A DNA stretch of 64,000 bases from Gemmatimonadota bacterium (GTDB lineage: Bacteria > Gemmatimonadota > Gemmatimonadetes > Gemmatimonadales > Gemmatimonadaceae), in NCBI GenBank assembly GCA_016182795.1, contig JACPFW010000015.1, positions 248,001 through 312,000 on the forward strand, written 5' to 3'. Positions 19,309 through 44,388 of this stretch are shown here, piece by piece. Below the pieces are notes generated by a model. That model was not told the origin of the DNA. It searched no databases and saw only the letters and a list, made by a program, of their open reading frames with translations. The translations under genes and the position numbers were made by a program. Position 1 is the first letter of the stretch; each line of letters opens with the position of its first letter.

Positions 19309-19388
19309 TCTACTAGCGGCGGGTGACCGAGGGTTGGTCACCCGTCGCCACATCCGGGGGGAGTCCCCTGTCGCTCGTGATCCCGAAT

Positions 19389-19836
19389 ACCACGGATGCA
19401 CACGGCTGGGACACGGATTTCACGGATCGTGCTTGGGGGGTCCCCAAAGTCAGATCCGTGTTCATCCGTGCGTTTCCGTGTGCATCCGTGGTAGGCAGGC
19501 CACTCGAGGATCCGCGGAACGGCTGGATACCACGGATGCACACGGATGGGACACGGATTTCACGGATCGTGCTCGGGGGGGTCCCCAAAGACAGATCCGT
19601 GTTCATCCGTGCGTTTCCGTGTGCATCCGTGGTAATCAGACTACTCGAGGGTCCGCGGAACGGCTGAACACCACGGATGCACACGGATGGAACACGGATT
19701 TCACGGATCGTGCTCGGGGGAGTCCCCAAAGACAGATCCGTGTTCATCCGTGCGTTTGCGTGTGCATCCGTGGTAATCAGACTACTCGAGGGTCCGCGGA
19801 ACGGCTGAACACCACGGATGCACACGGATGGAACAC
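19389..19836. repeat. Three tandem copies of a 140-bp dyad repeat, plus a truncated fourth
   Basis: Units begin with CCACGGATGCACACGGAT at about 19389, 19529, 19670 and 19811 (spacing 140-141 bp). Each full unit ends with the near-reverse complement GTGTGCATCCGTGG, so single units can fold into hairpins of roughly 105 bp; the spacer between units contains ACTCGAGG and CCGCGGAACGGCTG. The copies are over 90 percent alike by eye. The fourth copy breaks off at about 19836 inside the aldolase reading frame. This CACGGATG-type dyad repeat is familiar from many environmental bacteria. Confidence 0.85.
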
Positions 19837-20877
19837 GCCGAAGATGACGTCGTTGAGGTGCGTGACAATGCACACGTGGTTGGGAACTACGCGCACCAGT
19901 TCGCCAACGCGCGGGCGCCAGTCGGTGGCGGTGAGATCGAGCATGCCGTGCTCCTCGCTCATGCGCGCCACGATGACCTCGGGGCGATCGAGCAGCGCCC
20001 CCCACCCTTCCCCGGACGCGCCGCGGATGGGCTCGCGGCCAAGTGACTTGGTGCCGGCGTCGATGACGGCCTGCCCCTTTACGCTGGTGCTCACCACGGT
20101 CGCCAGCACGGTGAACGCGCAGTCATCCCACTTGCACGCACCGATCTCGGCCGTGGTGCGGTCGTTGTACACATACGTGCCGGGGCGGATCTCGGTGATG
20201 CCGGTGATCTCGTGTGAGCGCCACATCGTGGGCGTCGAACCGCCGCTCACGATGGCCGGCGGCAGACCGGCCTCGGTAAAGGCCTGCACCGCCTCGGACA
20301 CCTTGTGGCGCAGTCGCTCGAGCGACGCGTCCTGCGACGTGACCGGCTCGCGAATGTGGCCCGGGTAGAATGCGATGCCCGAGAACTCGAGCGGAGGATT
20401 GGCCCGCACCATGTGCGCCAGCGCGATGGCGTCGTCGAGCGACGGCACCCCGACGCGGTGCATGCCGGCGTCGAACTCCACGGTGACCGCTACCGCGCGG
20501 TCGTGCCGCACGGCGGCGGCGTAGAGCTGGTCGATGGCCTCGGCGTTGTCGAGCTGAACGCGCAGGGCGACGTCGTCGCGCACGCTGAACAGGCGGTCGA
20601 GCTTGGCGTGCCCAACCAGAGGATAGGCGACGAGCAAGTCATCGCTCGCCTGCTGCATCACCGTGGCCTCGTGCGGCGTGGCGCAGGTGAGTCCGGCGGC
20701 CCCGCGGCGCATCTGCTCGCGCCCAACGTGCACCGACTTGTGGGTCTTGGTATGCGGGCGCAGCTGCAGCTGGTGCTGATCGGCGTACGCCTGCATCGTG
20801 TCGAGATTGCGCGCCATCACGTCGACGTCGACGAGCGGCACCGGGGTCTCAAGCTGTTCGAAGGACATCGGGATCAC
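19777..20877 (-). CDS. DSD1-family PLP-dependent aldolase/dehydratase with repeat-derived C-terminus
   Basis: 366 residues. It belongs to the fold-type III alanine racemase-like family that includes D-threonine aldolase and D-serine dehydratase. LRPHTKTHKS holds the Lys that binds PLP (about residue 44); EFDAGMHRVG and SGGSTPTM are phosphate-binding and barrel motifs; PNHVC near residue 333 gives the His-x-Cys pair that binds the divalent metal in D-serine dehydratase-like members. The start GTG 20877 overlaps the stop of the upstream gene (GTGA); ATG 20868 is an alternative. From about residue 347 the frame reads through the dyad repeat, giving VFHPCASVVFSRSADPRVV instead of the usual ending. 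The metal site is kept, so it may still be active. Confidence 0.85.
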   Translation of the reverse strand: MIPMSFEQLETPVPLVDVDVMARNLDTMQAYADQHQLQLRPHTKTHKSVHVGREQMRRGAAGLTCATPHEATVMQQASDDLLVAYPLVGHAKLDRLFSVRDDVALRVQLDNAEAIDQLYAAAVRHDRAVAVTVEFDAGMHRVGVPSLDDAIALAHMVRANPPLEFSGIAFYPGHIREPVTSQDASLERLRHKVSEAVQAFTEAGLPPAIVSGGSTPTMWRSHEITGITEIRPGTYVYNDRTTAEIGACKWDDCAFTVLATVVSTSVKGQAVIDAGTKSLGREPIRGASGEGWGALLDRPEVIVARMSEEHGMLDLTATDWRPRVGELVRVVPNHVCIVTHLNDVIFGVFHPCASVVFSRSADPRVV

Positions 20878-23305: not shown

Positions 23306-24274
23306 ATGGAAACCATGAACTTCGCCGCCATTCCCACCCCCCGGGGGCCGGAGGAGAAGGGAGACCTCGGCTTCGGCGCCGTGGTCTCGACGGCCAGCCG
23401 CAAACGGCTGCTCAACGCCGATGGATCATTCAACGTGCGGCGCGTCGGCCTGCCGTGGGCCGAAGCCGTCAGCCTGTACCACACCGCGCTGACGGCGCGC
23501 TGGCCCGCGTTCCTCGGCTGGGTGGTGACCATTTACTTTGGTATCAATGTATTGTTTGCCGCGCTGTTCTCGCTGTGCGGGGACGGCGCGATCAGCGGTC
23601 CGGGGTTCGCGGCGATGGGCGGGGTGTTTGCGCGCGCCTTTTTCTTTTCGGTCGAGACGTTTGCCACCATCGGCTACGGCAACATCACGCCGGTTGGCAT
23701 GCCCGCCCACCTCATCATGACGTTCGAGGCGCTGGTAGGCGTGCTGGCGCAGGCGCTAATCACCGGGCTGTTCTTTGCGCGGTTCGCTCGCCCCACCGCG
23801 GCCATCACGTTCAGCCGGCGCGCCGTCATCGCCCCGTTTCGCGACGGTCAGGCGCTGATGATCCGCATGGCGAACAGGCGCAAGAACGAACTCATCGAAC
23901 TCAAGGCGTCGCTGTCCCTGTCGTACATCGACGCCACAGCGGCCGTGCCGGTGCGGCGCTTCCGCGCGCTGACGCTCGATCGCGCCGAGGTGACGTTCTT
24001 CCCGCTGGCCTGGACGATCGTGCACCCGATCACGCCGGCCAGCCCGCTGTGGGGGCTCGACCACGCGGCGCTTCACGAAAAGGACGCCGAGGTCCTGCTG
24101 CTGCTCACCGGTACGGATGACACGTTCGCCACGACGGTGCACGCGCGCACGTCGTACAAGCCCGACGACCTCACGTGGCAAGCGAAGTTCACCAACATCT
24201 TCAACCCGCCCGACGAGGCGGGGGTGATGTCGCTCGATATCAGCCGGCTCGACGAGACGCAGCCGGTCGCCTAG
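23306..24274 (+). CDS. KirBac-type inward-rectifier potassium channel
   Basis: 322 residues from ATG 23306 (ATG 23315 is possible). An amphipathic slide-helix region precedes TM1 (about 68-90), the pore helix with selectivity filter TIGYGN (121-126), and TM2 (about 135-160). The C-terminal 160 residues form the cytoplasmic immunoglobulin-like domain of Kir channels, beginning with FSRRAVIAPFRDGQALMIRMANRR and containing ELKASLSLSYID. Prokaryotic KirBac channels are tetrameric, potassium selective and gated by lipids or ligands at the cytoplasmic domain. Divergent from the DUF5916 gene by 68 bp; convergent with the SET-domain gene. Confidence 0.93.
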   Translation: METMNFAAIPTPRGPEEKGDLGFGAVVSTASRKRLLNADGSFNVRRVGLPWAEAVSLYHTALTARWPAFLGWVVTIYFGINVLFAALFSLCGDGAISGPGFAAMGGVFARAFFFSVETFATIGYGNITPVGMPAHLIMTFEALVGVLAQALITGLFFARFARPTAAITFSRRAVIAPFRDGQALMIRMANRRKNELIELKASLSLSYIDATAAVPVRRFRALTLDRAEVTFFPLAWTIVHPITPASPLWGLDHAALHEKDAEVLLLLTGTDDTFATTVHARTSYKPDDLTWQAKFTNIFNPPDEAGVMSLDISRLDETQPVA

Positions 24275-24283
24275 GCGCGGGGG

Positions 24284-24308
24284 CTGACGCGCGCGCGCGG
24301 CGCGTCAG
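24284..24308. terminator. Hairpin between convergent genes
   Basis: CTGACGCG (24284-24291) pairs with CGCGTCAG (24301-24308) around an all-GC loop. The right arm overlaps the stop of the SET-domain gene. There is no T-run, so termination is a likely but unproven function. Confidence 0.5.
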
Positions 24309-24829
24309 TCGCGGTGCTTCTTGGTGTGCCGCGCGACCGCGTGATGCGGGCGCGGGCGCTTGGGCTTCTTGGGCGCGAGGATCGTGCCGCGGCATTTCTT
24401 CGTACCGCAGTGGCAGACATAGCGCGCCTCATCCTCGGCGGTCTCCGTGCCGTCGCGCTCGTAGCCGTAGTCGTAGAAGAGCTCGTCGCCCTTGGCGATC
24501 GGCCGAATCGCGTCGATGAAGACGCGGCTCCCCTGGATGAGCGCTTCGCAGTTGGGGTCGCACGAGTGGTTGATGAACCGCGCGTCGTTGCCGCCGACCG
24601 ACGCGTCGATCACCGTCTGCCGCGAGACGGCGAACAAGAACGTGTGGTGACGCGACATTCGCTCGTCATCGTACCGTGCGTCGGCCACCTTGTGGGTGAT
24701 GCGCTCGCCGAGGTACTCGATGAGCCGCTCCCCCTTCTTGATGTCGCGGGTGGCAAACGCGCCGCGCCCGGAAATGGCGGAGCGGCGGATCTTGAACGGG
24801 GCGATGGCGGGCGCTGAACGAGGCGGCAT
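24305..24829 (-). CDS. Bacterial SET-domain protein (putative lysine methyltransferase)
   Basis: 174 residues from ATG 24829. A complete SET domain fills residues 12-122: GRGAFATRDIKKGERLIEYLGE (SAM-binding start), FINHSCDPNC at 85-94 with the NHSC of the pseudoknot, and GDELFYDYGY with the catalytic Tyr. A post-SET zinc motif follows (CHCGTKKCRG; Cys139, 141 and 146, completed by a Cys of the core). The tail is strongly basic (KKPKRPRPHHAVARHTKKH). SET proteins transfer methyl groups from SAM to lysines; bacterial members have been found to act on ribosomal or nucleoid proteins. The basic tail might target DNA or RNA. Target unknown. Confidence 0.9.
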   Translation of the reverse strand: MPPRSAPAIAPFKIRRSAISGRGAFATRDIKKGERLIEYLGERITHKVADARYDDERMSRHHTFLFAVSRQTVIDASVGGNDARFINHSCDPNCEALIQGSRVFIDAIRPIAKGDELFYDYGYERDGTETAEDEARYVCHCGTKKCRGTILAPKKPKRPRPHHAVARHTKKHRD

Positions 24830-24938: not shown

Positions 24939-26309
24939 ATGCCACAGTCCAGCGTGAATCCCGCCACCGGCAAGTCGCTCGCCGTGATTGCCGACCATAG
25001 CAGCACCGAGGTGGAACGCCTCGTCGCCCGGGCCGCCGCCGCGGCCGCCACGTGGCGTGCCACCCCGCTTGATGCGCGCACCGCGATGCTGCGCCGCATG
25101 GCCGATTTGCTCGACGCCGAGAACGAGCCGCTCGCGCGGCTCGCCACGCTCGAGATGGGCAAGCCGATTGTTGCCGCGCGACAGGAAGTGGCGAAGTGCG
25201 CGGTGGCCTGCCGCTTCTATGCCGACCAGGCGCCCGGTTACCTGGCGCCCGAGCGCGTGGTGCGCGACGGCCGCGACGATGGGGCCGTGCACTACCTGCC
25301 GCTCGGCGTGCTGTTGGCGATCATGCCGTGGAACTTCCCCTACTGGCAGGCCATTCGCGCGGCGGCGCCGGCGCTCGCCGCCGGCAACGTGGTGATGCTC
25401 AAGCATGCCTCCAACGTGCCGCAGTGCGCGCTGGCCATCGAGCGGTTGTTCGTGGTCGCCGGGGCGCGCGACGGTGCGTTCACCACGCTGCTGATCAGCG
25501 GCGCGCGCGCCGGCGCGCTCATCGACGACCCGCGCATCGCCGCGGTGACGCTCACCGGCTCGGAGGCGGCCGGACGCGATGTTGGCGCCCGCGCCGGCCG
25601 TGCCGTGAAGCCGTTCGTGCTGGAGTTGGGAGGAAGCGATCCGTTTGTCGTGCTCGCCAGCGCCGACATCGCCGCCGCGGCCAAGACGGCGGCTCAGGCC
25701 CGCTGCATCAATAACGGCCAGTCGTGCATAGCCGCCAAGCGGTTCATCGTGCACACGGCGGTCTACGACGCGTTCGTTGCGCAGTTCACGGCCGCGATGC
25801 GGGCGATGACCATGGGCGATCCTCTGCTCGACACGACGGACATCGGCCCGCTGGCCACGGTGAGCATTCGCGACGAAGTGGCCGATCAGGTGCAGCGGAC
25901 GGTGGCCGCCGGGGCGCGCGTGGTGTGCGGCGGTTCAGCGCCCGACGGGCCGGGACTCTTCTACCCGCCCACCGTGCTCATGGACGTGCCGCGCGACTCG
26001 GCTGCCGCGCGAGAAGAAGTGTTCGGTCCGGTGGCGCCGCTCTTTCGCGCCGCAAACGCGGACGAGGCGCTCGCGCTCGCCAACGACACCGCATTCGGGC
26101 TCGGCGCGTCGGTCTGGACGCGCGACGCCGCCGAGGCGAGCCGGTTTGCCGATGGCATCGAGGCCGGATCGGTGTTCATCAATGCGCTGATGGCGAGCGA
26201 TCCGCGCTTCCCGTTTGGCGGCGTGAAAGCCAGCGGCATTGGGCGCGAGTTGGCGCGTGAGGGATTGCGGTCGTTCGTGAATACGAAGACGGTGCGCGGA
26301 ACCGCTTAG
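24939..26309 (+). CDS. NAD(P)-dependent succinate-semialdehyde-type dehydrogenase
   Basis: 456 residues from ATG 24939 (a GTG at 24924 is less likely). The aldehyde dehydrogenase fold is complete: MPWNFPYWQ (129-137), cofactor Lys155 in MLKHASN, LTGSEAAG, general-base Glu229 in LELGGSDPF and nucleophile Cys263 in NNGQSCIAAKRF. The GQSCIAAKR version is typical of the compact GabD-like succinate-semialdehyde dehydrogenases that feed succinate to the TCA cycle from GABA or related compounds. No transaminase lies nearby, so the actual substrate is uncertain. Its stop overlaps the stop of the convergent kinase gene by four bases. Confidence 0.9.
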   Translation: MPQSSVNPATGKSLAVIADHSSTEVERLVARAAAAAATWRATPLDARTAMLRRMADLLDAENEPLARLATLEMGKPIVAARQEVAKCAVACRFYADQAPGYLAPERVVRDGRDDGAVHYLPLGVLLAIMPWNFPYWQAIRAAAPALAAGNVVMLKHASNVPQCALAIERLFVVAGARDGAFTTLLISGARAGALIDDPRIAAVTLTGSEAAGRDVGARAGRAVKPFVLELGGSDPFVVLASADIAAAAKTAAQARCINNGQSCIAAKRFIVHTAVYDAFVAQFTAAMRAMTMGDPLLDTTDIGPLATVSIRDEVADQVQRTVAAGARVVCGGSAPDGPGLFYPPTVLMDVPRDSAAAREEVFGPVAPLFRAANADEALALANDTAFGLGASVWTRDAAEASRFADGIEAGSVFINALMASDPRFPFGGVKASGIGRELAREGLRSFVNTKTVRGTA

Positions 26310-28066
26310 CGCCGCCAACGGAAGACACGCCGTATCGCCTTCCACCACCGCACCCAGCGGGTGGCGCGCCGTTCCTGCCGCGCCAGCTCGCGCGTGAGGT
26401 CGCGCCACTCGCGCCGCATCGTGGCCGCGTCGCGGAACCGGCGTTCGGGCTCGGGCGACAGCGCCTTGCGCAGCCAGTTTGCGAGTTCAGGCGGGAACTC
26501 GCTGAGATCGACCGTACCGGCGAGCTGCTGCGCGAGAATCATGCGCGCATCGCCGCCGCCAAACGGCAGGCGGCCGGTGAGCGCAAAGACGACGACGCCG
26601 GCCACGGCGAACAGATCGGCCTGCACGCCCTGCGCCTCGCCGAGCAGCTGCTCGGGCGCGGCGAAGGCCGGGGTGCCCGAGGCGCCCATCTTGTCCTCAC
26701 CGAGCGCGTTGGCGATGCCGAAGTCCGAGAGCCGCCAGTGCCGGTAGCGGTCGATGAGCACGTTCTCGGGCTTGATGTCGCGGTGGATGATGCCGTTGGC
26801 GTGCGCCTGGCCGAGGCCGTCGAGGATGGCGTCGACCTGCGATGCGATCTCGGCGACCGAGCGCGGTCCCTGGCGGGCGACCAGATCGGCCACCGAGCCC
26901 TCCTCCTGCACCTCCATGATGTACCACGACACGTCGCCTTTGGAATCCCACGAGTAGATGGGGACGATGGCCGGGTGCTTGAGCTGCGCGGCGAGGCGCG
27001 CTTCGCGGCGGAAGCGCGCCAAAGCGTCTTCGTTACGCGCGATGGCGGGGTGGAGCATCTTGAGCGCCACGTCGCGTTCGAGCGAGAGGTCGCGCACGCG
27101 CCACACGGATCCGAACTGCCCCGTGCCGAGCGGGGCGATGACTTCGTAGTCGTCGCCGGTGGCCCACCGCAGGCGGTCTTCCTCGGAGAGGGCCCGGTAC
27201 TCGCCGGAGGCCTGATCGACCCCGACGAGTAGCGGCGACCCCGTGCCCGAGATGCGCTCGATCTGGCGCAGCATGGCCGCGAGGTTGAAGAAGCGGTCGC
27301 CCGGTTCGGGGGCGAGGGCGCGGTCGATGAGATCGGCAACACTGGCCGGCACCTCGGGGCGCACATACCGAATGGGCGGCGCTTCCTCGCGCGGCGGGAG
27401 TTCGCCGGTGAGAATGGCAAAGCAGACGGCGCCGAGTTGCCACTGGTCGCTGGCCGGCGTTGGTTGCCACGCCCCCGTGGCAAGCTCGTGCGGCATCGGC
27501 ACCCACTGCGGGTCGGGGCGCAGGCCACCGGGCACCTCATCGGGCGACACGGCCCACTGCCAGCCGAGCACATACAGCCGCCCGGCCGGCGTGGTGTAGA
27601 TGTTGTCCGGCGACACCGCGCCGTGCGTGGCGCCCGCGTCGTGCAGGTACGCCAGCGCAGAGCCCGCGGCGCGCAGGACGCGCAGCATGTATGGCACCGT
27701 CTCGGTGCCGATGCGGCGCAGACGCGCGCCGACCGTTTCGCCAGCCACCCAGCGCCGCAAATAGCCCGGGCCGCGACGGCTCTCGCGGTATCGACGCCAG
27801 TAGTGGTACGTCGTGGGGATGTTGGGATGGTTGCGGTGCGCGAGCTGCCTGGCTTCGGCGAACAGCCAGTTCTCGTGCAGCGGATCCGGCGCCGTCACCA
27901 GCGCCAGCGGCCGCTCGAAGGCATCGATCACCTGCATCGCGTGCCGATGCGGGGTGAAGACGCCGTCGTCGCCCCAGCGCCAACCGGGCGGCAGCTCCCA
28001 CCGATCAAGGTGCGGCGGTATCCCGTTCAGGCGCTTTTGCGGTGGGGTGGTGGAGAAGACGTTCAT
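26306..28066 (-). CDS. Ser/Thr protein kinase with N-terminal pseudokinase domain
   Basis: 586 residues with two kinase-like folds. The first (about 35-275) has a kinase layout but lacks key residues: the catalytic loop reads THGAVSPDN (147-155) with no HRD Asp, and the DFG position reads LGW. I judge it a pseudokinase. The second (about 308-560) is complete: glycine loop LGTGQFGSVW, Lys336, HRDIKPEN (428-435), DFG (448-450) and the APE-like AAPEQ. There is no transmembrane helix, so it is soluble. A basic Arg/Trp-rich C-terminal tail (RWVRWWKAIRRVFRWRR) might bind membrane. It is transcribed 16 bp downstream of a large histidine kinase, suggesting joint signalling. Confidence 0.9.
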   Translation of the reverse strand: MNVFSTTPPQKRLNGIPPHLDRWELPPGWRWGDDGVFTPHRHAMQVIDAFERPLALVTAPDPLHENWLFAEARQLAHRNHPNIPTTYHYWRRYRESRRGPGYLRRWVAGETVGARLRRIGTETVPYMLRVLRAAGSALAYLHDAGATHGAVSPDNIYTTPAGRLYVLGWQWAVSPDEVPGGLRPDPQWVPMPHELATGAWQPTPASDQWQLGAVCFAILTGELPPREEAPPIRYVRPEVPASVADLIDRALAPEPGDRFFNLAAMLRQIERISGTGSPLLVGVDQASGEYRALSEEDRLRWATGDDYEVIAPLGTGQFGSVWRVRDLSLERDVALKMLHPAIARNEDALARFRREARLAAQLKHPAIVPIYSWDSKGDVSWYIMEVQEEGSVADLVARQGPRSVAEIASQVDAILDGLGQAHANGIIHRDIKPENVLIDRYRHWRLSDFGIANALGEDKMGASGTPAFAAPEQLLGEAQGVQADLFAVAGVVVFALTGRLPFGGGDARMILAQQLAGTVDLSEFPPELANWLRKALSPEPERRFRDAATMRREWRDLTRELARQERRATRWVRWWKAIRRVFRWRR

Positions 28067-28082
28067 GGAAGCATCAAATGTG

Positions 28083-31000
28083 TCAGGCCGCGCCTTTGCC
28101 GACTAGGCGAATGGTCACGGACGTCCCCTCTCCGGGGGCGCTGACGACCTCGATTGCCCCGCCCCACCCTTCGATGAGGCGGCGACTGATGGCGAGGCCG
28201 AGTCCGCTGCCGCTGGTGCGCGTGGAGAAATGGGGCTCGAAGATGCGCGGCAGCACGTCGGCAGCGATTCCGTGGCCGTCGTCGCGCACGGCAATGCGCA
28301 CCGACCCTTCACCCTTGCCCAGCGTGACGTGCACGTGCTTCGCGCCGGCGTGCCGCGCGTTCTCGAGCACGTTGAGCAGCACCTCGCGCAGTTCGGTTTC
28401 GCGCGCCATGGCCATGACCGACGCCGTGGCGCCGTTCACAAACCACTCCACGCCCCCCGCGCCCATCTGCTCGAGCCGCAGCACGTCGGTGAGAATGGCC
28501 GCGACGTCCACCGCGTCCGCCGGCGGCTGTTCCTCGGGAAGCGTCCCGTACCGGCTGAACGCGCGCGCGATTTCGTCGAGCCGGTCGATCTCGGCCAGCA
28601 TGCGCGCGACGTTCTCGTCGAGCACCTCGTCAAAGTCGACGCGTGCGTCGCGGCGCGCGCGGCGCAGGTGCTGCATGCCGAGGCGCATCGGCGTGAGCGG
28701 GTTCTTGATCTCGTGGGCCACTTGCCGCGCCATCTCGCCCCACGCCAACACGCGCTGCGCGCGGGCCAACTCGCTAAGGTCGTCGAGGGTGATCACCGCG
28801 CCGCGCGCGCCGCGCAGGAGACGCGTGAAGCGCACGTGCAGCTGCACGCCGCCCGGCCGTTCGATGTCGAACTCCTCGCCGTCGGCGCTGCCCGCGAGGA
28901 ACCGGCTGAGTCGGTCGGCCAGCTGGGCGTCCATCACGCTGTCTGCCGGCGCGCCGGGTGTCGCGCCGGCGGCGAGCAGCGCCACCGCGCGCGGATTGAT
29001 GAGCGAGATGCGCCCCTCGGCGTCGACGGCCACCACGCCGCTGGCGACGTCGCGCAGCACCGCGGCCAGCCGGCGTTCGGCGGCCTCGAGCGCGTCGCGG
29101 CTGGCGCCGAGGTCGGCGGCCATGCGGCGGAATGCGTCGAAGACCGGCTCGAACTCCACCGGCGGCCGCTCGCCCGGCAGCGGCTCGCGGACGCCGCCGG
29201 CGACGGCGAGCGCGCCGCGGCGCAGGGTGTCGATGGGGCGCGCAAACGTGCGCGCCGCGATGCCACTCAGCCAAAATGCCGCCAGCGCGCCGAGCGCGGT
29301 CACGACCAGCACCAGCATGGTCACGTCGCGCCGGCGGCGGTCGAGCGCAAGTTCGTCACTGCGCGCGGGCGCCGACAGCACGTAGCGCGCCCCGCTGGTG
29401 TCGATCACAGCGCGGTACCCAAAGCGCACCCGCGTACTGCCAACCCGTTCATCCATGCCGGCCAGCAGATCGTCGTTGTCGCCGAGGGCGCGCACCACGT
29501 CAGGGGGCAGCAGCCGGCCCACCGGCGCGAGCACGTCGTACAGCGGATCGCTCGTCTCCAAGAGCAGGCCGTCCGCATACAGGAGAAGGGGCGTGTCGAA
29601 ACGCGCCGCCGCCTCGCTGAGTTGCATGCTGTCGGGCGACGCCGCCACCTTCAGCGTCTCGCGAACCAGCAAGTCGCGCGTCTGCTGATCGTCCAACTGC
29701 AGTCGGCGATAGCTCCACGCCGCAAACCCGACCGCCGGCAGCACGAAGAACGCAAAGAGCGCGAGCGACAGCCGCAGTCGATACGACCGCGGCCAGCCTC
29801 GGACCCACAGGCGGAGCCAACGCTGTCCCGTACCCTCGGCCACGAACAGCAGGCCCCAGATGAGCGCCACGAGGAACAGGTCGGCCAAGACAAGCAGCGC
29901 GCCGCGCGGGGCGAGCACTTCGAGCCCGCGCAGGTCGATACGCGCGTGGACGCGCTCGGCGCCGGCATCGCCCACCGGCACGACCCAGTCGCCGTGCAGT
30001 TCATTGGCGCGGCGCGTCCAGCGCTCGGCATCGGTGGTCACCTCGCGATGGTCGCCGAGCTGGAGCGTGTACGGCGGCTCGCTGGTGGGCACTTCTCCGA
30101 GGCCGAGGAGGGCGATAAACGGATCGGCAGGCACGAGCCGTGTGCGCGGCGAGATCACCACGGTCGTCGCGCCGCCGTCGGCGTGCGGGACGGCGAGCAC
30201 CAACTGTGAGACGGGCGCGGCGGTCGTCTGCCGCAGCACCGGCTGGCGGAGGCGGAGCGCCTCGGCGGCGAACGCGTCGAGGCCGGTGGTGGAGCCGGGC
30301 GCCATGGCGACGCGCAGGTCGGCGACGGCGCGCCCGAGCGAGTCCCACGCCGTGAGTTCCGCGGGAAAGCCTGCCGCGCCCAGTTCGGTGGACGCGTAGC
30401 GCGCGAGCAGGCCGGCGCGGCTCGGCGGCGGTGGCTGCTGCACCAGCTCGACCGCCAATCGCTGCAGCAGGGCCGCGGCGTCGGGGTCGGCAACGCCAAG
30501 TCCGGCCACGTCGCGTTCGGCGAGCTGCACGCGCTGACGCACGGACGACGACCAGACCAGTGTCACGGCGCCGCAGGCGGCCACGAATGCGGTGCGCATT
30601 ACCGCGCGCCGGGCGCGACGCGCGATCGCGAGCGCGCCGATGGCCGCGATCCACAGCACCGGATACCACCCCGGCAGCCGCGCGGGCGCATCGAGCAGCA
30701 CGGGCGCCATCAGCGCGGACACGCCGGCGATCACCGGCGCCAGCCAGCCCGGCAGCCCGCGCCGCGCACCAAGTGCGGCCTGGCCGGCGGTGACGCCGAG
30801 CAGGAGCAGGGCGAATGCCACCATGAAGACCGACACCTGCCACGCGACCCACAGGTCCGTCGACGTTCCGCTTGCCGGCACGCGAATGCCGCGCGCGAGG
30901 TCGCGCAGCAGGAACGGCGTGACCGATGCCACGACGACGAGCAGGCCGACCCATATCCAGCGCGCCCGCAGGGTCGTGCGTCGACGCTGCGCGGCAAAGA

Positions 31001-32048
31001 GCGCCATCAGGGCCAGTGTGCCGACCATCGCCAGCGCCGCGACATTGGCCGACAGCGCTCCCAGCGTGGAGGTGTAGTACAGTCCGGCGTCGAACCAGCG
31101 CGAGAAATTGGAGTACGCGCCGAGCGGCAGGATGGCGACCGCCCCCGCCACGGTGGCGATGGTCAGCAGGCGGACCAGCACCGGATGCTCGCGCCGCCAA
31201 GCGGTGGCGATGAAGAGCAGCGCCAGCACGAGCAGGAGCGCGGCGCTGCGCAGGCGCGAGCGTTCCATGGTTTCGAGCGCCACCACCGCCGGCGGGGCGA
31301 CAATGGCGCGCACCGCGAGGACGGCGTCGCCTTCCACCGTGACGCGTCGAATAGAGTCGCCCGGAATGTCGGCGGGGCCGAACACGTAGCCAGCGATGCC
31401 AAGTGGCAGCGTGGCTGGCGCGTCGAGCGGAGTGGTGAGGTGATCAGCAGGCGGTTCGGCGTGCAGCAGCGCCGTGGCGATGACCGAGACGTCGCCGCGC
31501 GTCGCGGCCACGTAGAGCGAGAGATAGAACGGCGTGGCCATCACACCGTGCGGGCCGGGAAGCGAATCGACGGGGAGATGCAGTCGGCCGGCCCACGCCT
31601 CGGGGCGGCCGTCGCGCGCGCGCAGCACGGCCCGCTCGGGGTGTCCTCGAATCAGACGCTCCATGGCATCCCATCGCCCGGCGCTGCTGTCGGACCAGGT
31701 ACCGGCCGCCGCCGCGTCGGCGGCCTCGCGCAGTTCGGCGGCCGTCGTCTCGATGCGGCGCGCGAAGTCCTCGGTCGCGCGGTCGGCGGCCCGCCGACTC
31801 CACTCCGGCCAGTTGGCTTCGCGCCGCACGCGCTCGGCGCGCGCGATGATGCCCTCGCCCACGAGAAGGACGGCCATGGCCAGGAAGGCCAGTTCGCGTC
31901 CGCGACGGCGGCGGCCGCTCAACGCTGGAATCGCGATCAACACCGCCGCCCCGCACGCCCAGAGCCAGCCTGGCTGCAGCGTACGAATCCACGCGGCGGC
32001 CATCAGGACGATGGCGGCCGCCGATGGCATCCAAACCCAGCGCGGCAT
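28083..32048 (-). CDS. Large NtrY-like membrane sensor histidine kinase
   Basis: About 1321 residues from ATG 32048; the frame is open further upstream but that part resembles leader DNA. The N-terminal two-thirds is unusually large and membrane-rich: an initial pair of helices, a periplasmic segment, a cluster of about ten hydrophobic helices (about 260-560), a second extracytoplasmic domain, and a further helix pair before a HAMP region. A PAS-like domain follows (LAAVLRDVASGVVAVDAEGRI). The transmitter is complete: H-box VAHEIKNPLTPMR with phosphoacceptor His near 1112, N-box LNVLENARHA, and DDGHGI, FEPHFSTR, GSGLGL. NtrY-like kinases normally pair with an NtrC response regulator; none is adjacent. 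Confidence 0.88.
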   Translation of the reverse strand: MPRWVWMPSAAAIVLMAAAWIRTLQPGWLWACGAAVLIAIPALSGRRRRGRELAFLAMAVLLVGEGIIARAERVRREANWPEWSRRAADRATEDFARRIETTAAELREAADAAAAGTWSDSSAGRWDAMERLIRGHPERAVLRARDGRPEAWAGRLHLPVDSLPGPHGVMATPFYLSLYVAATRGDVSVIATALLHAEPPADHLTTPLDAPATLPLGIAGYVFGPADIPGDSIRRVTVEGDAVLAVRAIVAPPAVVALETMERSRLRSAALLLVLALLFIATAWRREHPVLVRLLTIATVAGAVAILPLGAYSNFSRWFDAGLYYTSTLGALSANVAALAMVGTLALMALFAAQRRRTTLRARWIWVGLLVVVASVTPFLLRDLARGIRVPASGTSTDLWVAWQVSVFMVAFALLLLGVTAGQAALGARRGLPGWLAPVIAGVSALMAPVLLDAPARLPGWYPVLWIAAIGALAIARRARRAVMRTAFVAACGAVTLVWSSSVRQRVQLAERDVAGLGVADPDAAALLQRLAVELVQQPPPPSRAGLLARYASTELGAAGFPAELTAWDSLGRAVADLRVAMAPGSTTGLDAFAAEALRLRQPVLRQTTAAPVSQLVLAVPHADGGATTVVISPRTRLVPADPFIALLGLGEVPTSEPPYTLQLGDHREVTTDAERWTRRANELHGDWVVPVGDAGAERVHARIDLRGLEVLAPRGALLVLADLFLVALIWGLLFVAEGTGQRWLRLWVRGWPRSYRLRLSLALFAFFVLPAVGFAAWSYRRLQLDDQQTRDLLVRETLKVAASPDSMQLSEAAARFDTPLLLYADGLLLETSDPLYDVLAPVGRLLPPDVVRALGDNDDLLAGMDERVGSTRVRFGYRAVIDTSGARYVLSAPARSDELALDRRRRDVTMLVLVVTALGALAAFWLSGIAARTFARPIDTLRRGALAVAGGVREPLPGERPPVEFEPVFDAFRRMAADLGASRDALEAAERRLAAVLRDVASGVVAVDAEGRISLINPRAVALLAAGATPGAPADSVMDAQLADRLSRFLAGSADGEEFDIERPGGVQLHVRFTRLLRGARGAVITLDDLSELARAQRVLAWGEMARQVAHEIKNPLTPMRLGMQHLRRARRDARVDFDEVLDENVARMLAEIDRLDEIARAFSRYGTLPEEQPPADAVDVAAILTDVLRLEQMGAGGVEWFVNGATASVMAMARETELREVLLNVLENARHAGAKHVHVTLGKGEGSVRIAVRDDGHGIAADVLPRIFEPHFSTRTSGSGLGLAISRRLIEGWGGAIEVVSAPGEGTSVTIRLVGKGAA

Positions 32049-32200
32049 GGTGCGCGCCCGGGTGGAGGCGTGGTCGGGAGCAGGCAGGTGGGGCGTAGTC
32101 ACTCGCGAGGATAATACCCCGCCGACGGCACGGGGGCGAACGAACGGCACCATTGGACAGATGCAGGGTAATGCGATTGGCTCTATCATTATAGTTGCCC

Positions 32201-32893
32201 ATGAATCGCCTCTTCTGTCTTGCCGCTTTCGTACTGACGGCCGTTCCACTGGCCGGGCAGACCACCATCCCCGATGATGGCAGTCTGTCCATCAGCCGCG
32301 CGGGCGACCGGATTGGGCGCGAGGACTTTTCCATCCGGCATGTCCCGACCACCTCGGGGGCGTTCGAGACCATGACGCGTGGCGTGGTGGTGACCGGCAC
32401 GCATCGCGTGACGATGGACCTGAGCGCCGACTCCACCGGCCTGCCGCTGCGATTTCAGTCGAAGACAGCCGACGACGGCCGCGCGACCAACTCGTTCCGC
32501 GCCGAAGTGATCGGCCGGCGCTTCAGCGCGCGTGCCATTCGTAACGCCGGCGAGTCGGCGCGCGAACTGATGCTCCCCCCCGGGACGCTGATCGTGGAGG
32601 ACGGCGTCTTCCACCCGCTGCAGTTCGTGGTGGCGCGCGGACCCGGCGTGGTCAGCGCGGTCGTGCCGTCGCGCGGCAGGGTGGTGTCGCTGACCGTCGA
32701 GGCCGGCGAAGCGGACCGCGTCTCCATCGCGCTGCAGTCGATCGAGGCCCGGCGGTTCATTGTGCGAGAGAGCGCGGCAGGCTCGGTGCGTGAAGTGTGG
32801 GTCGACGCCAATGGGCGTCTGCTCAAGGTCGCGATTCCGGCCCAGCAGATCGTGGCCGTCCGCGACGACGCGCCGCGCGCCCCGGCTCGCTAG
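32201..32893 (+). CDS. Exported protein of unknown function (DUF3108/DUF6134-like fold possible)
   Basis: 230 residues from ATG 32201 with a signal peptide (LFCLAAFVLTAVPLAGQ). The mature protein has alternating short beta strands: SISRAGDRIGREDFSIRH, TTGTHRVTMDLSADSTGLPLRFQSKT, then FIVRESAAGSVREVWVDANGRLLKVAIP at the C-terminus. The pattern of a parameter phrase ending in VWVDANGRLLKV occurs in proteins of the DUF3108 and DUF6134 types, which are thought to be periplasmic beta-barrel proteins. This is a resemblance, not a firm assignment. It is divergent from the histidine kinase; a near-leaderless start is possible because TATCAT lies 12 bp before the ATG. Confidence 0.7.
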   Translation: MNRLFCLAAFVLTAVPLAGQTTIPDDGSLSISRAGDRIGREDFSIRHVPTTSGAFETMTRGVVVTGTHRVTMDLSADSTGLPLRFQSKTADDGRATNSFRAEVIGRRFSARAIRNAGESARELMLPPGTLIVEDGVFHPLQFVVARGPGVVSAVVPSRGRVVSLTVEAGEADRVSIALQSIEARRFIVRESAAGSVREVWVDANGRLLKVAIPAQQIVAVRDDAPRAPAR

Positions 32894-32939: not shown

Positions 32940-33022
32940 GCCTCCCTTGTCGTGGCGTCTTGAAACTCCGCCCGCCGGGGGGCCGTATGTCCCCTCGGAC
33001 CTAACGATTGGATGCCCTGGAT

Positions 33023-34489
33023 ATGCGCCAACTACTGACCGCCCTTGTTGTTTCCGCAGTCGCCCTCACTGCCTCCGCACAGACGGCGCCGAGTACGCTG
33101 ACGCTTGACGACGCCGTGGGCATCGCCAAGAAGAACAACCCCGTGTACCAGCAGCAGCTCAGCGGCCGCACCCGCGCGGCCCTGGCCCTGCGCTCGGCGT
33201 ACGGCGCCTTCATGCCGAGCGCCGATGCCTCGTTCGGCACCGGCTACCGCCAGGGCAAGCAGGAGTTCTTCGGCGGCGTCGCGTTCGGCGCGACGTCGGA
33301 CATCATCTCCAGCAACTGGGGGCTGAACTTCAACGCCCGCATGTCGGCGGCGACGGTCTCCGAGGTGCGCCGCGCGCGCGCCAACATGGACGCCGCCGAA
33401 GCCGACGTGGCGGGGGCCGACGTGGCCCTGCGCGCGGCGGTCGTGACGCAATTCCTGACTGCCCTGCAGACCGAGGCCAGCGCCGCGCTGCAGGACTCCC
33501 TGCTCAAGAAGGTGCAGCTCGATCTCGAGCTGGCGAAGGCCAAGGCCGGGGTGGGCGCCGGCACGACGCTCGATGTGAAGCGCGCCGAGGTGGCAGTCGG
33601 GCAGCAGCAGGTGGCGGCGCTCAAGGCGCGCAACACGGCCGAGGTGGAGCAGCTCAAGCTGTTCCAGCAGCTAGGCGTCGCCCGTCCGGGCCCCGTGCAG
33701 TTGGTGCCGATGACAACGGCGACGGCGCCGACGTTTGAGCTGAGCGAACTGCTCGCCAACGCCCGCAAGAGCAACCCGACGCTGCAGGGCTACCAGTCGC
33801 GGCAGAACGCGGCGACGATGGGGGTGCGGTCGGCCAAGAGCGCCTACACGCCCACCGTGTCGCTGGGCGCGCAGCTCGGCGGCTACACGACGCAGTACAA
33901 GAACGACGATTACCTCGTGGCGCAGGCGCAGAACTCGGTGCTGGGAAGCCAGGCGAGCTGCTTCACGACCGACTCCATTCGCCGCGGCGCCGGGCTCAGC
34001 TCCATCAGCGCCCGGTGCAACGCCATGACCTTCACGCCGGCCATGGCGCAGGGCATCCGCGACGGCAACAAGACGTTCCCGTTCGACTTCACGTCGAGCC
34101 CTTACAACCTGTCGCTCACCGTGTCCCTGCCGCTGTTCGACCGGTTCGGACGCGAGCAGCGGCTGCAGGAAGCGCAGATCGCCCGCGACAACGCGCGGTA
34201 CGACGTGCGCAAGCAGGAACTGCAGCTGACCGCCGACGTGACGTCGGCGTGGACGTCGCTGCAGGCGGCGTACCGCACCGTGGGGCTCCAGGAGCAGAAC
34301 GCGGCGGCCGCGCAGGAAGCGCTCACGCTGGCGCAGGAGCGCTACCGAGTGGGCGCCAGCAGCTTTGTGGAACTGGTGCAGGCCCGCAACGATTATGAAC
34401 GGGCGTCCACCGATCGCATTGGCGCCATCTATGACTACCATCGTGCCTGGGCCGCGCTGGAAAACGCGGTGGGCCGTCCCCTCCGCTAA
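33023..34489 (+). CDS. TolC-family outer-membrane efflux protein
   Basis: 488 residues from ATG 33023, with signal peptide (LLTALVVSAVALTASAQ). TolC-family features are clear: two long helical repeats, each with the Leu/Ala heptads and coiled coils of the periplasmic tunnel (VAGADVALRAAVVTQFLTALQ; VRKQELQLTADVTSAWTSLQ), and the characteristic RYRVGASSFVELVQARNDYERA near the C-terminus. Trimers form a channel through the outer membrane and a periplasmic barrel. A loop in the middle (about residues 310-370) has two Cys and is longer than usual. It is the first gene of an efflux operon, with the adaptor starting 12 bp downstream. Confidence 0.92.
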   Translation: MRQLLTALVVSAVALTASAQTAPSTLTLDDAVGIAKKNNPVYQQQLSGRTRAALALRSAYGAFMPSADASFGTGYRQGKQEFFGGVAFGATSDIISSNWGLNFNARMSAATVSEVRRARANMDAAEADVAGADVALRAAVVTQFLTALQTEASAALQDSLLKKVQLDLELAKAKAGVGAGTTLDVKRAEVAVGQQQVAALKARNTAEVEQLKLFQQLGVARPGPVQLVPMTTATAPTFELSELLANARKSNPTLQGYQSRQNAATMGVRSAKSAYTPTVSLGAQLGGYTTQYKNDDYLVAQAQNSVLGSQASCFTTDSIRRGAGLSSISARCNAMTFTPAMAQGIRDGNKTFPFDFTSSPYNLSLTVSLPLFDRFGREQRLQEAQIARDNARYDVRKQELQLTADVTSAWTSLQAAYRTVGLQEQNAAAAQEALTLAQERYRVGASSFVELVQARNDYERASTDRIGAIYDYHRAWAALENAVGRPLR

Positions 34490-34501
34490 CAGAGACAGAC
34501 C

Positions 34502-35772
34502 ATGACCAAGCAAACCAAGTGGATCCTTATCGGCGTCGGCGTGGTGGCAGTGGGCGGCCTCGGCTACCTGCAGATGCAGAAGGCCAAGAAGAAGGGGACT
34601 GAGGTGCGCGTGGAGAAGGTGCAGAAGCGCGACCTCGTGGCGTCGGTCACGGCCAGCGGCCAGGTAACCCCGCGCACTAAGGTGGACCTCTCCGCCGACA
34701 TCACCGGCAAGATCGTGGCGCTGAACGTCAAGATGGGCGACATGGTCAAGAAGGGGCAGCTGCTGCTCCAGATCGACCCGCAGCAGTTTGAGAGCCAGGT
34801 TCAGCGCGCCGAAGCCGCACTGGCCAACTCGCGCGCGCGGCTGGCGCAGGCCAATGCCAACCTCCTGCAGGCGCAGAAGAACTACCAGCGCTCGTCGGAC
34901 ATCCGGAAGGCCAACCCCACGCTCATCAGCGACGAGCAGATCGAGCAGCTCAAGACGACCTATGAGGTCAACCAGGCGTTGCTCGAGGCCGCCCAGCAGG
35001 ACGTGAAGCAGGGCGAGGCGACACTCAAGGATGCGCGCTGGCAGCTGTCGCGCACCAACATCTACGCCCCGATGTCCGGACGCGTGACGCGGCTGAACGT
35101 CGAGAATGGCGAGACCGCCGTGCAGGGGACGTTCAACAAGGACGCCGCGACGTTGATGACCATCGCCGACATGAGCGTGCTCGAGACCAAGGTGAAGGTC
35201 GACGAGACCGACGTGTCGCGCATCTCGCTGGGCGACTCGGCGGTGATCCAGATCGACGCCTTCCCGGACACCACGTTCATCGGGAAGGTGGCCGAGATCT
35301 CGCAGAGTTCGGTGAAGGGCGCGACGACGACGACCGGCGACCAGGCGATCGACTATGAGGTGAAGATCCGCCTCGTCAATCCGCCCACCGACACGCGGCA
35401 GGACTTCTCGGCGACGGCCAAGGTGATCACCGACACGCGCACGCAGGTGCTGGCGATCCCGATCATCGCGCTGACGGTCCGCGAGAACGAGGAACTCAAG
35501 AGCACCGACTCGGTGCCCAACTCCAAGGCCCCGGCCAAGCAGGTGGGGAAGAAGGACGTGGAGGGGGTCTTCGTGGTGGACGGGGCTAACAAAGTGACGT
35601 TCCGGCCCGTAAAGGTAGGGATCGCGGGCGAGAAGTTCTTTGAGGTACTTTCCGGGGTCAAGGACGGCGACCGGATCGTGGGCGGCACGTACCAGGCCAT
35701 CCGCGAACTCAAGGACGGCGCCATTGTGAAGGAAGCCAAGCAACCGGAGCAGAAGCCCGGGGAGAAGAAGTC

Positions 35773-35776
<4 letters not shown>
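34502..35776 (+). CDS. MacA-like periplasmic adaptor protein (HlyD/RND family)
   Basis: 424 residues. One N-terminal transmembrane helix ([17 protein letters not shown]) anchors it in the inner membrane. Then come the first half of the lipoyl domain ([28 protein letters not shown]), a long alpha-helical hairpin (about 95-190, [24 protein letters not shown]), the second lipoyl half ([26 protein letters not shown]), a beta-barrel domain, and a membrane-proximal domain ending in [19 protein letters not shown]. The order is that of MacA, which links a MacB ABC transporter to TolC. Its start follows TolC by 12 bp; its stop overlaps the ATPase gene by 4 bp. Confidence 0.92.
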
Positions 35777-36591
<815 letters not shown>

Positions 36592-36746: not shown

Positions 36747-37994
36747 ATGCTTTTCTTCGAGTCCATTCGCCTCGCGCTGAACACCATCCGCGCGCAGAAG
36801 CTGAAGAGCTTCTTCACCCTGCTCGGCGTCTGCATCGGCGTGATGTTCCTGATTGCCGTGGTGTCGATCGTGGAGGGGATGGGGCGGTACATGGAGCAGG
36901 ACCTCATCGGCAAGCTGATCGGCATCAATTCGTTTGAGCTGCGGCACCGCCCGAACATCAACATGGGCGATGTGGATCCGTCGGTGTGGGAGTCGTACCG
37001 TCGGCGGCCGCGGCTGTATCGCGACGACGTGGCGCCGGTCATCGAGGCGCTCCCCGACGGCACCAAGTGGGCGATCGTCAGCGACAACAACCTTCCGGTC
37101 TCGTCGCGTTATTCGAGCGGCCCGCGCAACGCGCAGGTCAGCGCCGTGGACGGCGACTTCTTTGCCATTCGCAAATTTGTGATCGCCGAGGGGCGCGACT
37201 TCACGCCGCAGGAGCTGGCGATGGGGACGCCGGTGGTCATCGTCGGGCCCGAAGTGGTGAAGCGGCTCTTCCCGGGGCTCAGCCCGGTCGGACGCGAGCT
37301 GAAGATGGGCGGGCTCCCCTATACGATCGTCGGCGTGCTCGAGACGCAGGGGAGCGCGTTTGGGCTGTCGTTCGACAATCAGGTGTTCGCGCCGTGGGCG
37401 TCGCCGGTGCATCGGCTGCTCAACCGCGTGCCGACCATCGTCGACGCCGTCATCGTGCAGGTGCCGACCGCCGCGCAGATGACCGAGGCGCAGGAGCGGG
37501 TGCGCCAGGTGATGCGCGTACGCCACAAGCTGCGGCCGGGCCAGCCGGACAACTTCTCGCTGCAGACCTCGGAGAGCGCGCTGGCGTTCTGGAATAAACT
37601 CAAGCGCTACCTCGTGCTCGCCGGCATCGCCCTCCCCGCCATCGGACTTGTGGTCGGCGCCATCGTGATCATGAACATCATGCTCGTGGCGGTCGCCGAG
37701 CGCACGCGGGAGATCGGCATCCGCAAGGCGCTGGGGGCGCGGCGCGCCGACATTCTGAGCCAGTTCCTCGTGGAAGCCGCCACGCTCAGCACCGTGGGCG
37801 CGGCGGTCGGCATCGCGCTCGGGGTTGGACTCGCGAAGCTCATCTCGGTGGTGAGCCCGCTGCCGGCCACGGTGGCGCCGTGGTCGATTGTGGTTGGCGT
37901 CGCGCTTGGTGCCGGCGTCGGGATCATTAGTGGCGTGTATCCGGCGAGCCGCGCGTCGCGGCTCGACCCCATCGCCGCCCTGCGTCAGGAGTGA
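36747..37994 (+). CDS. FtsX/MacB-type ABC permease, A-type of pair 1
   Basis: 415 residues. A first transmembrane helix (SFFTLLGVCIGVMFLIAVVSIV) follows a short cytoplasmic helix (ESIRLALNTIRAQKLK). Then come a periplasmic MacB core domain (about 50-275) and three C-terminal helices in the FtsX arrangement, including the signature GLVVGAIVIMNIMLVAVAERTREIGIRKALGARRADIL. The protein ends with PASRASRLDPIAALRQE. The A-type group is set apart from the B-type by EGMxxY after TM1 and by the MNIMLVAVAERTREIGIRKALGA wording. Its partner starts 2 bp after the stop, with the ribosome site inside this gene. Confidence 0.93.
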   Translation: MLFFESIRLALNTIRAQKLKSFFTLLGVCIGVMFLIAVVSIVEGMGRYMEQDLIGKLIGINSFELRHRPNINMGDVDPSVWESYRRRPRLYRDDVAPVIEALPDGTKWAIVSDNNLPVSSRYSSGPRNAQVSAVDGDFFAIRKFVIAEGRDFTPQELAMGTPVVIVGPEVVKRLFPGLSPVGRELKMGGLPYTIVGVLETQGSAFGLSFDNQVFAPWASPVHRLLNRVPTIVDAVIVQVPTAAQMTEAQERVRQVMRVRHKLRPGQPDNFSLQTSESALAFWNKLKRYLVLAGIALPAIGLVVGAIVIMNIMLVAVAERTREIGIRKALGARRADILSQFLVEAATLSTVGAAVGIALGVGLAKLISVVSPLPATVAPWSIVVGVALGAGVGIISGVYPASRASRLDPIAALRQE

Positions 37995-37996
37995 CG

Positions 37997-39253
37997 ATGA
38001 CCTGGATTGCACAGCGGGCCGGCCAGGTGGTCGAGGGCATTCGCATCGCGCTCGAGTCGCTGCGCGCCAATCGGGTGCGCGCGGGGCTGACGATTCTTGG
38101 CATCGCCGTTGGCGTGTTCGTGGTCGTCGTCATCTCGGCGGCGGTGCATGGCATCAACGAGAGCGTTGCCCGGGACCTCGAGTCGACGGGACCGACGACG
38201 TTCTATGTGCAGCGCTACCCGATCACCTTCGAGGCCTGCGACGGAACGGGCGACACGTGCAAGTGGCTGTCGAACCCGCCCATCACCTTCGCCGAGATGG
38301 ACGCGCTCAATCGGCTGGAGGGCGCGGGGACCGTGGGCGCCGCGATGTACTGGGGCGGCTCGGTGCGGTACCGCGACCGCAACCTTCCCTCGGCGTCGAT
38401 CGAGTCGTACACCGGCAACTGGGCGTCGCTGGGCGCGCCGGAAATGATGGACGGGCGCGCGTTCACCGAGCAGGAGGCGCGCAGCGCGGCGCGGGTGGTG
38501 GTGCTCACCACGATCACGCGCGAGCGGCTGTTTGGCGAGAGCGACCCCATTGGCAAGGAGATCATGGTCAACGGCACGCCGTTCACCGTGATCGGCGTGT
38601 ACCGTGACAACGCCAGCTTCCTGTCGGGTGGCGGCGACCGCGCCAAGGTGGTGATGCCCATTCAGTCGCTGGGGCGGCACCTCAACGTGCAGATCCGCGA
38701 CATGGGGCTCGCCGTCAAGCCGCGCGAGGGGTACCAACCGGCCGAACTCATCGACGATGTGACCGCCACGCTGCGCGGCATGCGCGGGCTGCGCCCCGGC
38801 CGCGAGTCGAACTTCGCGATCATCACGCAGGACAAGATCATGGACACCTACAACAAGATCTTCGGGATGTTCTTCCTGGTGATGATCGCGTTGTCGGCGG
38901 TCGGGTTGATCGTGGGCGGCGTGGGCGTGGTGGCGATCATGATGATCTCGGTGACCGAGCGGACGCGCGAAATCGGGGTGCGGAAGGCGCTGGGCGCCAC
39001 GCGCAGCGCCATCCTGCTGCAGTTCCTCATCGAGGCCGTGACGCTCACCGGCATTGGCGGAGCCGTTGGCCTGTTCGTCGGCTGGGGTGTGGCGATGCTG
39101 GTGCGGGTCTACAGCCCCATCGCCGCCTCGGTGCCGCCCCTGGCCGTGGTCGCCGCCCTCGCCGCCAGCGCCGTGACCGGGGTGCTGTTTGGCATGCTCC
39201 CGGCAGCGCGGGCGGCGAAGCTGGATCCGGTGGAGGCGCTGCGATACGAGTGA
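37997..39253 (+). CDS. FtsX/MacB-type ABC permease, B-type of pair 1
   Basis: 418 residues from ATG 37997; AGGAG lies 5 bases upstream, and a GTG at 37991 overlapping the previous stop is less likely. It has the four-helix FtsX layout with a periplasmic core: TM1 in GLTILGIAVGVFVVVVISAAVHG, and the C-terminal signature GVGVVAIMMISVTERTREIGVRKALGATRSAIL, ending AKLDPVEALRYE. The periplasmic domain has a Cys pair (EACDGTGDTCKW, about residue 78-86) that is also in the B-type member of pair 2 and could form a disulfide. It pairs with the A-type permease just upstream. Confidence 0.93.
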   Translation: MTWIAQRAGQVVEGIRIALESLRANRVRAGLTILGIAVGVFVVVVISAAVHGINESVARDLESTGPTTFYVQRYPITFEACDGTGDTCKWLSNPPITFAEMDALNRLEGAGTVGAAMYWGGSVRYRDRNLPSASIESYTGNWASLGAPEMMDGRAFTEQEARSAARVVVLTTITRERLFGESDPIGKEIMVNGTPFTVIGVYRDNASFLSGGGDRAKVVMPIQSLGRHLNVQIRDMGLAVKPREGYQPAELIDDVTATLRGMRGLRPGRESNFAIITQDKIMDTYNKIFGMFFLVMIALSAVGLIVGGVGVVAIMMISVTERTREIGVRKALGATRSAILLQFLIEAVTLTGIGGAVGLFVGWGVAMLVRVYSPIAASVPPLAVVAALAASAVTGVLFGMLPAARAAKLDPVEALRYE

Positions 39254-39272
39254 GATCGGTTAGGGGACAAGT

Positions 39273-39332
39273 GATGGCAGAAGGCTGATGGCCGATGGCA
39301 GACTGCCATCCGCCGTCTGCCATCGGCCATCT
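39273..39332. repeat. GATGGC-type hairpin repeat
   Basis: GATGGCCGATGGCAGA (39285-39302) pairs with TCTGCCATCGGCCATC (39317-39332), with CTGCCATCCGCCG in the loop. It belongs to the family at 19268 and 49656. It lies between permease pairs 1 and 2 and could act as a hairpin in the mRNA. Confidence 0.65.
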
Positions 39333-39369
39333 CTCGAAACTCCACGCCGAACTCCCCCGTAGGGCAGGC

Positions 39370-40608: not shown

Positions 40609-40610
40609 CG

Positions 40611-41876: not shown

Positions 41877-41940
41877 CGCGGCCGCCGTATCGTCGCGCCG
41901 GCAAGGTGCCGGAGGCCCCGCCGCTCAGTAGTTTGGTAGG

Positions 41941-43131: not shown

Positions 43132-43137
43132 GCGCCC

Positions 43138-44385: not shown

Positions 44386-44388
44386 CGC

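Follow-up and report, generated by a model that had tools for sequence, protein, structure and literature searches.

The NtrYX two-component system of Alphaproteobacteria combines an extracytoplasmic sensor, a HAMP domain and a PAS domain ahead of a kinase core whose H-box reads HEIKNPLTP. These features recur in the giant sensor histidine kinase described here (HK), whose probable partner is an NtrX-like sigma-54 regulator; however, the sensor part of HK is far larger, with about 14 predicted helices and three predicted sensor domains, there is no match to Pfam NtrY_N, and the regulator gene is not adjacent to that of HK. A second parallel is offered by MacAB-TolC exporters with a linked sensor kinase, in which adaptor, ATPase, permease and TolC genes also lie beside the kinase gene, whereas at the present locus this gene is divergently transcribed and much larger, and the cluster is devoid of a regulator gene. 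Models of PglW (type 2 BREX) and MAD6 (MADS) span both halves of the tandem pseudokinase-kinase encoded next to HK (PK), i.e., they share its tandem kinase arrangement, but PK scores far below their cut-offs and has neither defence neighbours nor nuclease or DNA-binding domains. To our knowledge, tandem pseudokinase-kinases have seldom been described in bacteria. Lastly, in Bacillus subtilis, the Hanks-type Ser/Thr kinase PrkC and the envelope-related WalRK two-component system act on one regulon, and PrkC modifies the response regulator WalR on Thr101 (PMC4478028). In contrast to PK, which is predicted to be soluble, PrkC is a PASTA transmembrane receptor without a tandem pseudokinase.

The stretch of DNA analysed (64,000 nucleotides, G000:C21:248001-312000, hereafter the window) belongs to a Gemmatimonadaceae genome of 3.13 Mb in 50 contigs. 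As the initial annotation had stated, HK and PK are neighbouring genes on one strand, 16 nt apart (Table 1), and no response regulator gene lies next to HK, either in the window or in families f1 to f6 of the class. The HK start was set at the ATG at 32048, picked against relatives; the alternatives were a GTG at 32249 and an ATG at 32030. A sigma-70 promoter scan of the region, uninformative for this phylum, found no promoter, and no promoter-like site in the 16-nt gap. The PK reading frame shares four bases with a convergent aldehyde dehydrogenase (ALDH) gene. The vicinity also holds a bacterial SET-domain gene (24305-24829, minus strand, Pfam 5.5e-19), found near the HK-PK pair in many relatives, an inward-rectifier (KirBac-type) potassium channel gene (23306-24274, plus strand, IRK_C 5.9e-21), and a head-to-tail repeat at 19385-19857, where the gene at 19777-20877 ends, in which a 141-bp unit occurs about three times (95% matches).

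Table 1. Features of the HK-PK locus in window coordinates, and fusion genes of relatives
Feature	Position	Strand	Basis or remark
PK, tandem pseudokinase-kinase, 586 aa	26306-28066	-	ORF, Pfam
C-terminal active-type kinase domain of PK, about residues 298-550	26417-27175	-	K336, D430 and D448 invariant
N-terminal pseudokinase domain of PK (predicted), about residues 28-280	27227-27985	-	without beta3 Lys; HGA for HRD, LGW for DFG
Gap from HK stop to PK start, 16 nt	28067-28082	-	ORF ends
HK, giant sensor histidine kinase, 1321 aa	28083-32048	-	ORF, Pfam, homologue alignment, model
Predicted phosphoacceptor His1112 in HEIKNPLTP	28712-28714	-	53/53 aligned homologues; position from reading frame
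Divergent intergenic region between HK and exporter block	32049-32200	.	block GTCACTsGCGAGGATAATACCCCGC conserved across genus
DUF6134-like protein, first gene of divergent block	32201-32893	+	Pfam 3.5e-6, just below cut-off
TolC-type outer-membrane protein, MacA-type adaptor, MacB-type ATPase	33008-36591	+	HK-linked in six families of class
MacB/FtsX-type permease genes	36747-45648	+	sequence similarity
PK-TonB receptor fusions	L077:8050-11949 (+), L044:7986-11912, L045:5881-9759, L120		four g19 genomes

In f1 to f6, HK is divergent from genes for a DUF6134 protein, TolC, a MacA-type adaptor, a MacB-type ATPase and permeases; this linkage of HK to the exporter is much older than that of HK to PK. 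When the region separating HK from the exporter was searched for a conserved sigma-54 promoter, even the best matches did not exceed those of shuffled sequence, and they were not conserved. In the window, six mutually similar MacB/FtsX-type permease genes (starts at 36747, 37991, 39370, 40611, 43138 and 44389) stand in one run behind a single adaptor and a single ATPase; a further reading frame within this run (41941-43131) matches none of the six. Several relatives carry a creatininase-family amidohydrolase gene between HK and the exporter (L173:4968-5663 and L178:5183-5935, both minus strand).

HK contains the HATPase_c (3.1e-24) and HisKA (5.3e-7) domains of Pfam, both over the cut-off, along with weak HAMP and PAS matches, and the presence of the H, N, G1, F and G2 boxes identifies it as a sensor histidine kinase. 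Its phosphoacceptor His and its N, D and G residues are invariant among 53 aligned homologues and, because all the catalytic boxes are thus conserved, the core is catalytically intact and should be active. The sensor part (residues 1-990) was modelled with good confidence on the basis of 40 homologues (pLDDT 87, pTM 0.84). From the N-terminus, the model starts with three helices and a mixed alpha/beta domain (about 80-250); eight further helices lead to a second domain (about 520-705), another two to a third (about 820-895), and a last helix to HAMP. This predicts about 14 membrane helices, where about ten had initially been counted, and three extracytoplasmic sensor domains. Foldseek matches to the model are weak throughout, the best (E 9e-5) being to a low-TM WalK model, with the periplasmic sensor domains of KinD and of amino-acid chemoreceptors at E about 0.005 to 0.1; because of this weakness, the sensor domains can only tentatively be called Cache-like. 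The cytoplasmic PAS domain is absent from several lineages in the homologue alignment. The designation of HK as NtrY-like rests on the wording of the H-box and on the probable NtrX-type partner, and not on the NtrY model itself, since a Pfam search at E 0.1 returned no NtrY_N match; the best NCBIfam model is AtoS (177 bits versus a cut-off of 646).

In PK, the Pfam Pkinase model matches at 4.7e-47, with its best stretch at residues 307-548, while the N-terminal half matches weakly. The reading of this half as a pseudokinase is borne out: HRDxxxxN is replaced by 148-HGAVSPDN, DFG by 167-LGW, and the beta3 Lys by V57. Because profile comparison relates it to the C-terminal domain (E 6.6e-37) and because it matches on its own the solved PknA (9e-15), the N-terminal domain really is a degenerate kinase domain; its secondary structure in an AlphaFold model also parallels that of the C-terminal domain. 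The relative placing of the two domains was not used, as the pTM of this model is 0.51. Both the beta3 Lys and the catalytic Asp are missing from the N-terminal domain in all 49 family sequences and in 6/6 outgroup or paralogue sequences, so that it is a kinase fold without the catalytic Lys and Asp and is predicted to be inactive. With two exceptions, the HRD position reads HG[A/G/S/C/D] in the family, and it is [VIM]R[R] in other families. The DFG position lacks its Asp in the family, where LGW or LEW is the usual form; elsewhere it reads TDL, and a D remains at this position in f2 and f3. In contrast to this half, the C-terminal domain has intact HRDIKPEN, DFG and ALKM motifs, and the same sequences show no variation in its Lys or in the Asp of HRD and of DFG (49/49 and 6/6). 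The Gly-rich loop, beta3 Lys, HRD, DFG and APE are all invariant in the family, as in a Hanks-type Ser/Thr kinase, and the closest solved relative is PknB. PK has no predicted membrane helix and ends in a basic, Trp-containing helix, often with WWRR, for which a role at the membrane surface is a guess.

Several known kinase classes were considered for PK and rejected. As a PASTA Ser/Thr kinase (PrkC/PknB), it reaches 227 of 450 bits and has neither PASTA domains nor a transmembrane helix; the NCBIfam scores are 101 of 990 bits for BREX PglW and 178 of 460 for MADS MAD6, and its neighbours are exporter, ALDH and SET genes. Many PADLOC kinase models match the C-terminal domain, but generically; a defence function was rejected, as the specific models PglW and MAD6 stay below their cut-offs and no defence genes lie nearby. 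One family member has a second, diverged tandem pseudokinase-kinase paralogue (L116:5083-6984, plus strand, on G035:C77), 44% identical, which is not located beside an HK.

The architecture of PK is more than a chance arrangement, since it is found again in about 50 relatives. The initial annotation had proposed a search for conserved pairs and had held that separate promoters combined with a lack of conservation would speak against its reading; the pair turns out to be conserved and operon-like in the family. At 41 distinct family loci, HK is followed by PK on the same strand. The distance between them is -4 nt, i.e., an ATGA overlap, at 9 loci, 2 to 17 nt at 18, 18 to 45 nt at 11, and 46 to 182 nt at 3. 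PK is inverted together with its ALDH neighbour at five other loci, HK and PK are 6.3 kb apart at one, and they are on different contigs in G030; L047, which had been scored as lacking HK, retains the 3' end of HK just upstream of PK. A tree of PK indicates that HK-PK adjacency is ancestral in Gemmatimonadaceae; the inverted loci form a single clade in it, and PK has moved away in a few further cases. Nearly all of the order has the tandem PK, whereas the search of the remaining families of the class yielded single-domain matches only. In f2 and f3, which belong to the same order, HK and PK are both present and unlinked. Genera g7 and g44 have kept HK and the NtrX-like regulator and have no PK, while in g41 (within f1) HK and the regulator are absent and PK lies in HK's place, directly divergent from the exporter; HK and PK have thus been lost independently.

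A further rearrangement affects PK in one clade of g19 (four genomes, G028, G060, G064 and G068), where it is fused in frame to a TonB-dependent receptor; in other members of this genus, the kinase and receptor genes are separate. In the fusion, the PK frame has no stop codon and runs on through the C-terminal tail of PK and a hydrophobic, signal-peptide-like stretch, at whose end lies an AxA-like site, into an entire receptor (Plug 1.1e-18, barrel 1e-33). Because indels at the junction keep the frame, and given dN/dS values of about 0.02 for the kinase, 0.08-0.19 for the tail, about 0.3-0.4 for the signal-peptide-like part and about 0.07-0.08 for the plug, the whole frame appears to be translated and constrained. 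The simplest interpretation is that signal peptidase cleaves a polyprotein, and internal initiation could also supply the receptor.

As for the output of HK, a conserved response regulator was sought beside it in f2 to f6, where the neighbours proved to be varied metabolic, peptidase and transport genes. An orphan sigma-54 response regulator with NtrC/NtrX architecture is encoded elsewhere in the genome (L180:4294-5595, minus strand, corresponding to G000:C7:98296-99594), with no flanking kinase; its best named NCBIfam model is NtrX, with 399.5 bits versus an equivalog cut-off of 600. Among 149 genomes of the class that are at least 90% complete, 113 have both HK and this regulator and 32 have neither; HK occurs alone in 2, and the regulator alone in 2 (G004 and G018, both drafts). 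The corresponding Fisher p of 8e-28 is uncorrected for phylogeny and counts related genomes that are not independent events; co-occurrence and synteny of the two genes partly reflect common descent. The two genes are jointly absent from f7, f9, g41 and G092. In the 74 genomes in which a single contig carries both, their strand is the same without exception, with the regulator downstream in 73/74 and within 30 kb in 67/74 (median distance 11.4 kb); in the genus of the window, they are on different contigs. As the two genes are present together, are lost together and keep the same strand over long distances, the case for the NtrX-like regulator as cognate partner of HK is good but circumstantial. 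The suggestion that the Ser/Thr kinase serves as the output of HK, drawn initially from the lack of an adjacent regulator, is not supported, as an orphan regulator tracks HK and as HK and PK are separable.

The explanation that we favour, with confidence slightly better than even, is that PK was recruited into the HK transcript, that HK acts through the NtrX-type regulator on the exporter, and that PK adds Ser/Thr phosphorylation to this module. In the ancestor of Gemmatimonadaceae, a membrane-proximal PK would have joined the transcript of an envelope-sensing HK, whose three extracytoplasmic domains may sense envelope state. HK would most likely phosphorylate the NtrX-type regulator encoded elsewhere, which would probably control the divergent DUF6134-TolC-MacAB-type exporter. 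PK, co-expressed with HK and hence under the same control, would most likely phosphorylate Ser/Thr residues within the same module, i.e., of the regulator, the exporter or the cytoplasmic region of HK; the action of PrkC on WalR is a precedent for a response regulator being modified in this way. What we observe are the two genes and their motifs, their conserved adjacency, the conserved linkage to the exporter, the co-occurrence of HK and regulator, and the separate losses of HK and PK. We infer that HK and PK are co-transcribed, that HK pairs with the regulator, that the exporter is the target, and that each of the phosphorylation steps takes place. Since PK stays by the exporter even without HK, it probably acts on the envelope module and, since it survives in g41 without both HK and the regulator, its target cannot be only these two. 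PK is a later add-on that probably tunes the HK-regulator-exporter module; it would regulate envelope export at a further level and is probably not the direct target of HK. Pseudokinases can serve as docking or allosteric elements; by analogy, the degenerate N-terminal domain of PK would most likely dock on, or act allosterically on, the active C-terminal domain, an allosteric role being plausible.

Mere co-regulation of an unrelated HK and PK, with substrates of PK elsewhere and HK irrelevant to its activity, seems rather unlikely to us. HK and PK do separate freely and, since the PK homologue of f2 sits beside an ABATE/CGNR stress regulator and, at some loci, a GGDEF or HD_4 protein, PK has other partners and its ancestral partner was not this HK; yet PK remains at the exporter locus after the loss of HK in g41 and after inversion in five genera, which suggests a tie to the exporter or the envelope. 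Direct cross-talk, in which HK and PK would phosphorylate or bind each other, with the pseudokinase as allosteric receiver and PK as the main output of HK, is possible on the basis of the conserved operon, the ATGA overlaps at some loci, and an N-terminal domain that is dead throughout the lineage. We nonetheless consider it quite improbable, given that HK is found without PK in g7 and g44 and PK without HK in g41, that f2 and f3 have both genes without linkage between them, and that HK tracks the NtrX-type regulator instead. Bolder still, and a long shot in our view, would be one trans-envelope unit made of HK, regulator, PK and exporter, in which the pseudokinase reads the state of HK or of the exporter and sets the Ser/Thr phosphorylation of the regulator or the exporter, with a kinase and TonB-dependent receptor polyprotein in one lineage; if true, it would tie a cytoplasmic kinase to an outer-membrane receptor in that lineage. 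Least credible is that HK is a stand-alone or phosphatase-type receptor and the NtrX-like gene a syntenic passenger, for although their distance varies from 4 to 73 kb with other genes in between, both genes are jointly present nearly everywhere outside the lineages that lack the two, and no other histidine kinase flanks the regulator in this genome.

Under the favoured explanation, i.e., recruitment of PK to an HK-regulator-exporter module, a two-component and exporter module found across the class has gained a tandem pseudokinase-kinase that is specific to one lineage. We found no study of the HK-PK pair in paper searches, in which coverage of subscription papers was limited. The order in which PK is nearly universal comprises common bacteria of soil and freshwater; none of the sequences examined shows a reversion of its pseudokinase half, and its fixed place by an envelope sensor and an exporter gives it defined candidate partners. 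More generally, a probable regulator can be assigned to an orphan histidine kinase from shared presence, shared loss and same-strand synteny over long distances, and this assignment would open a signalling system of the whole class to direct tests.
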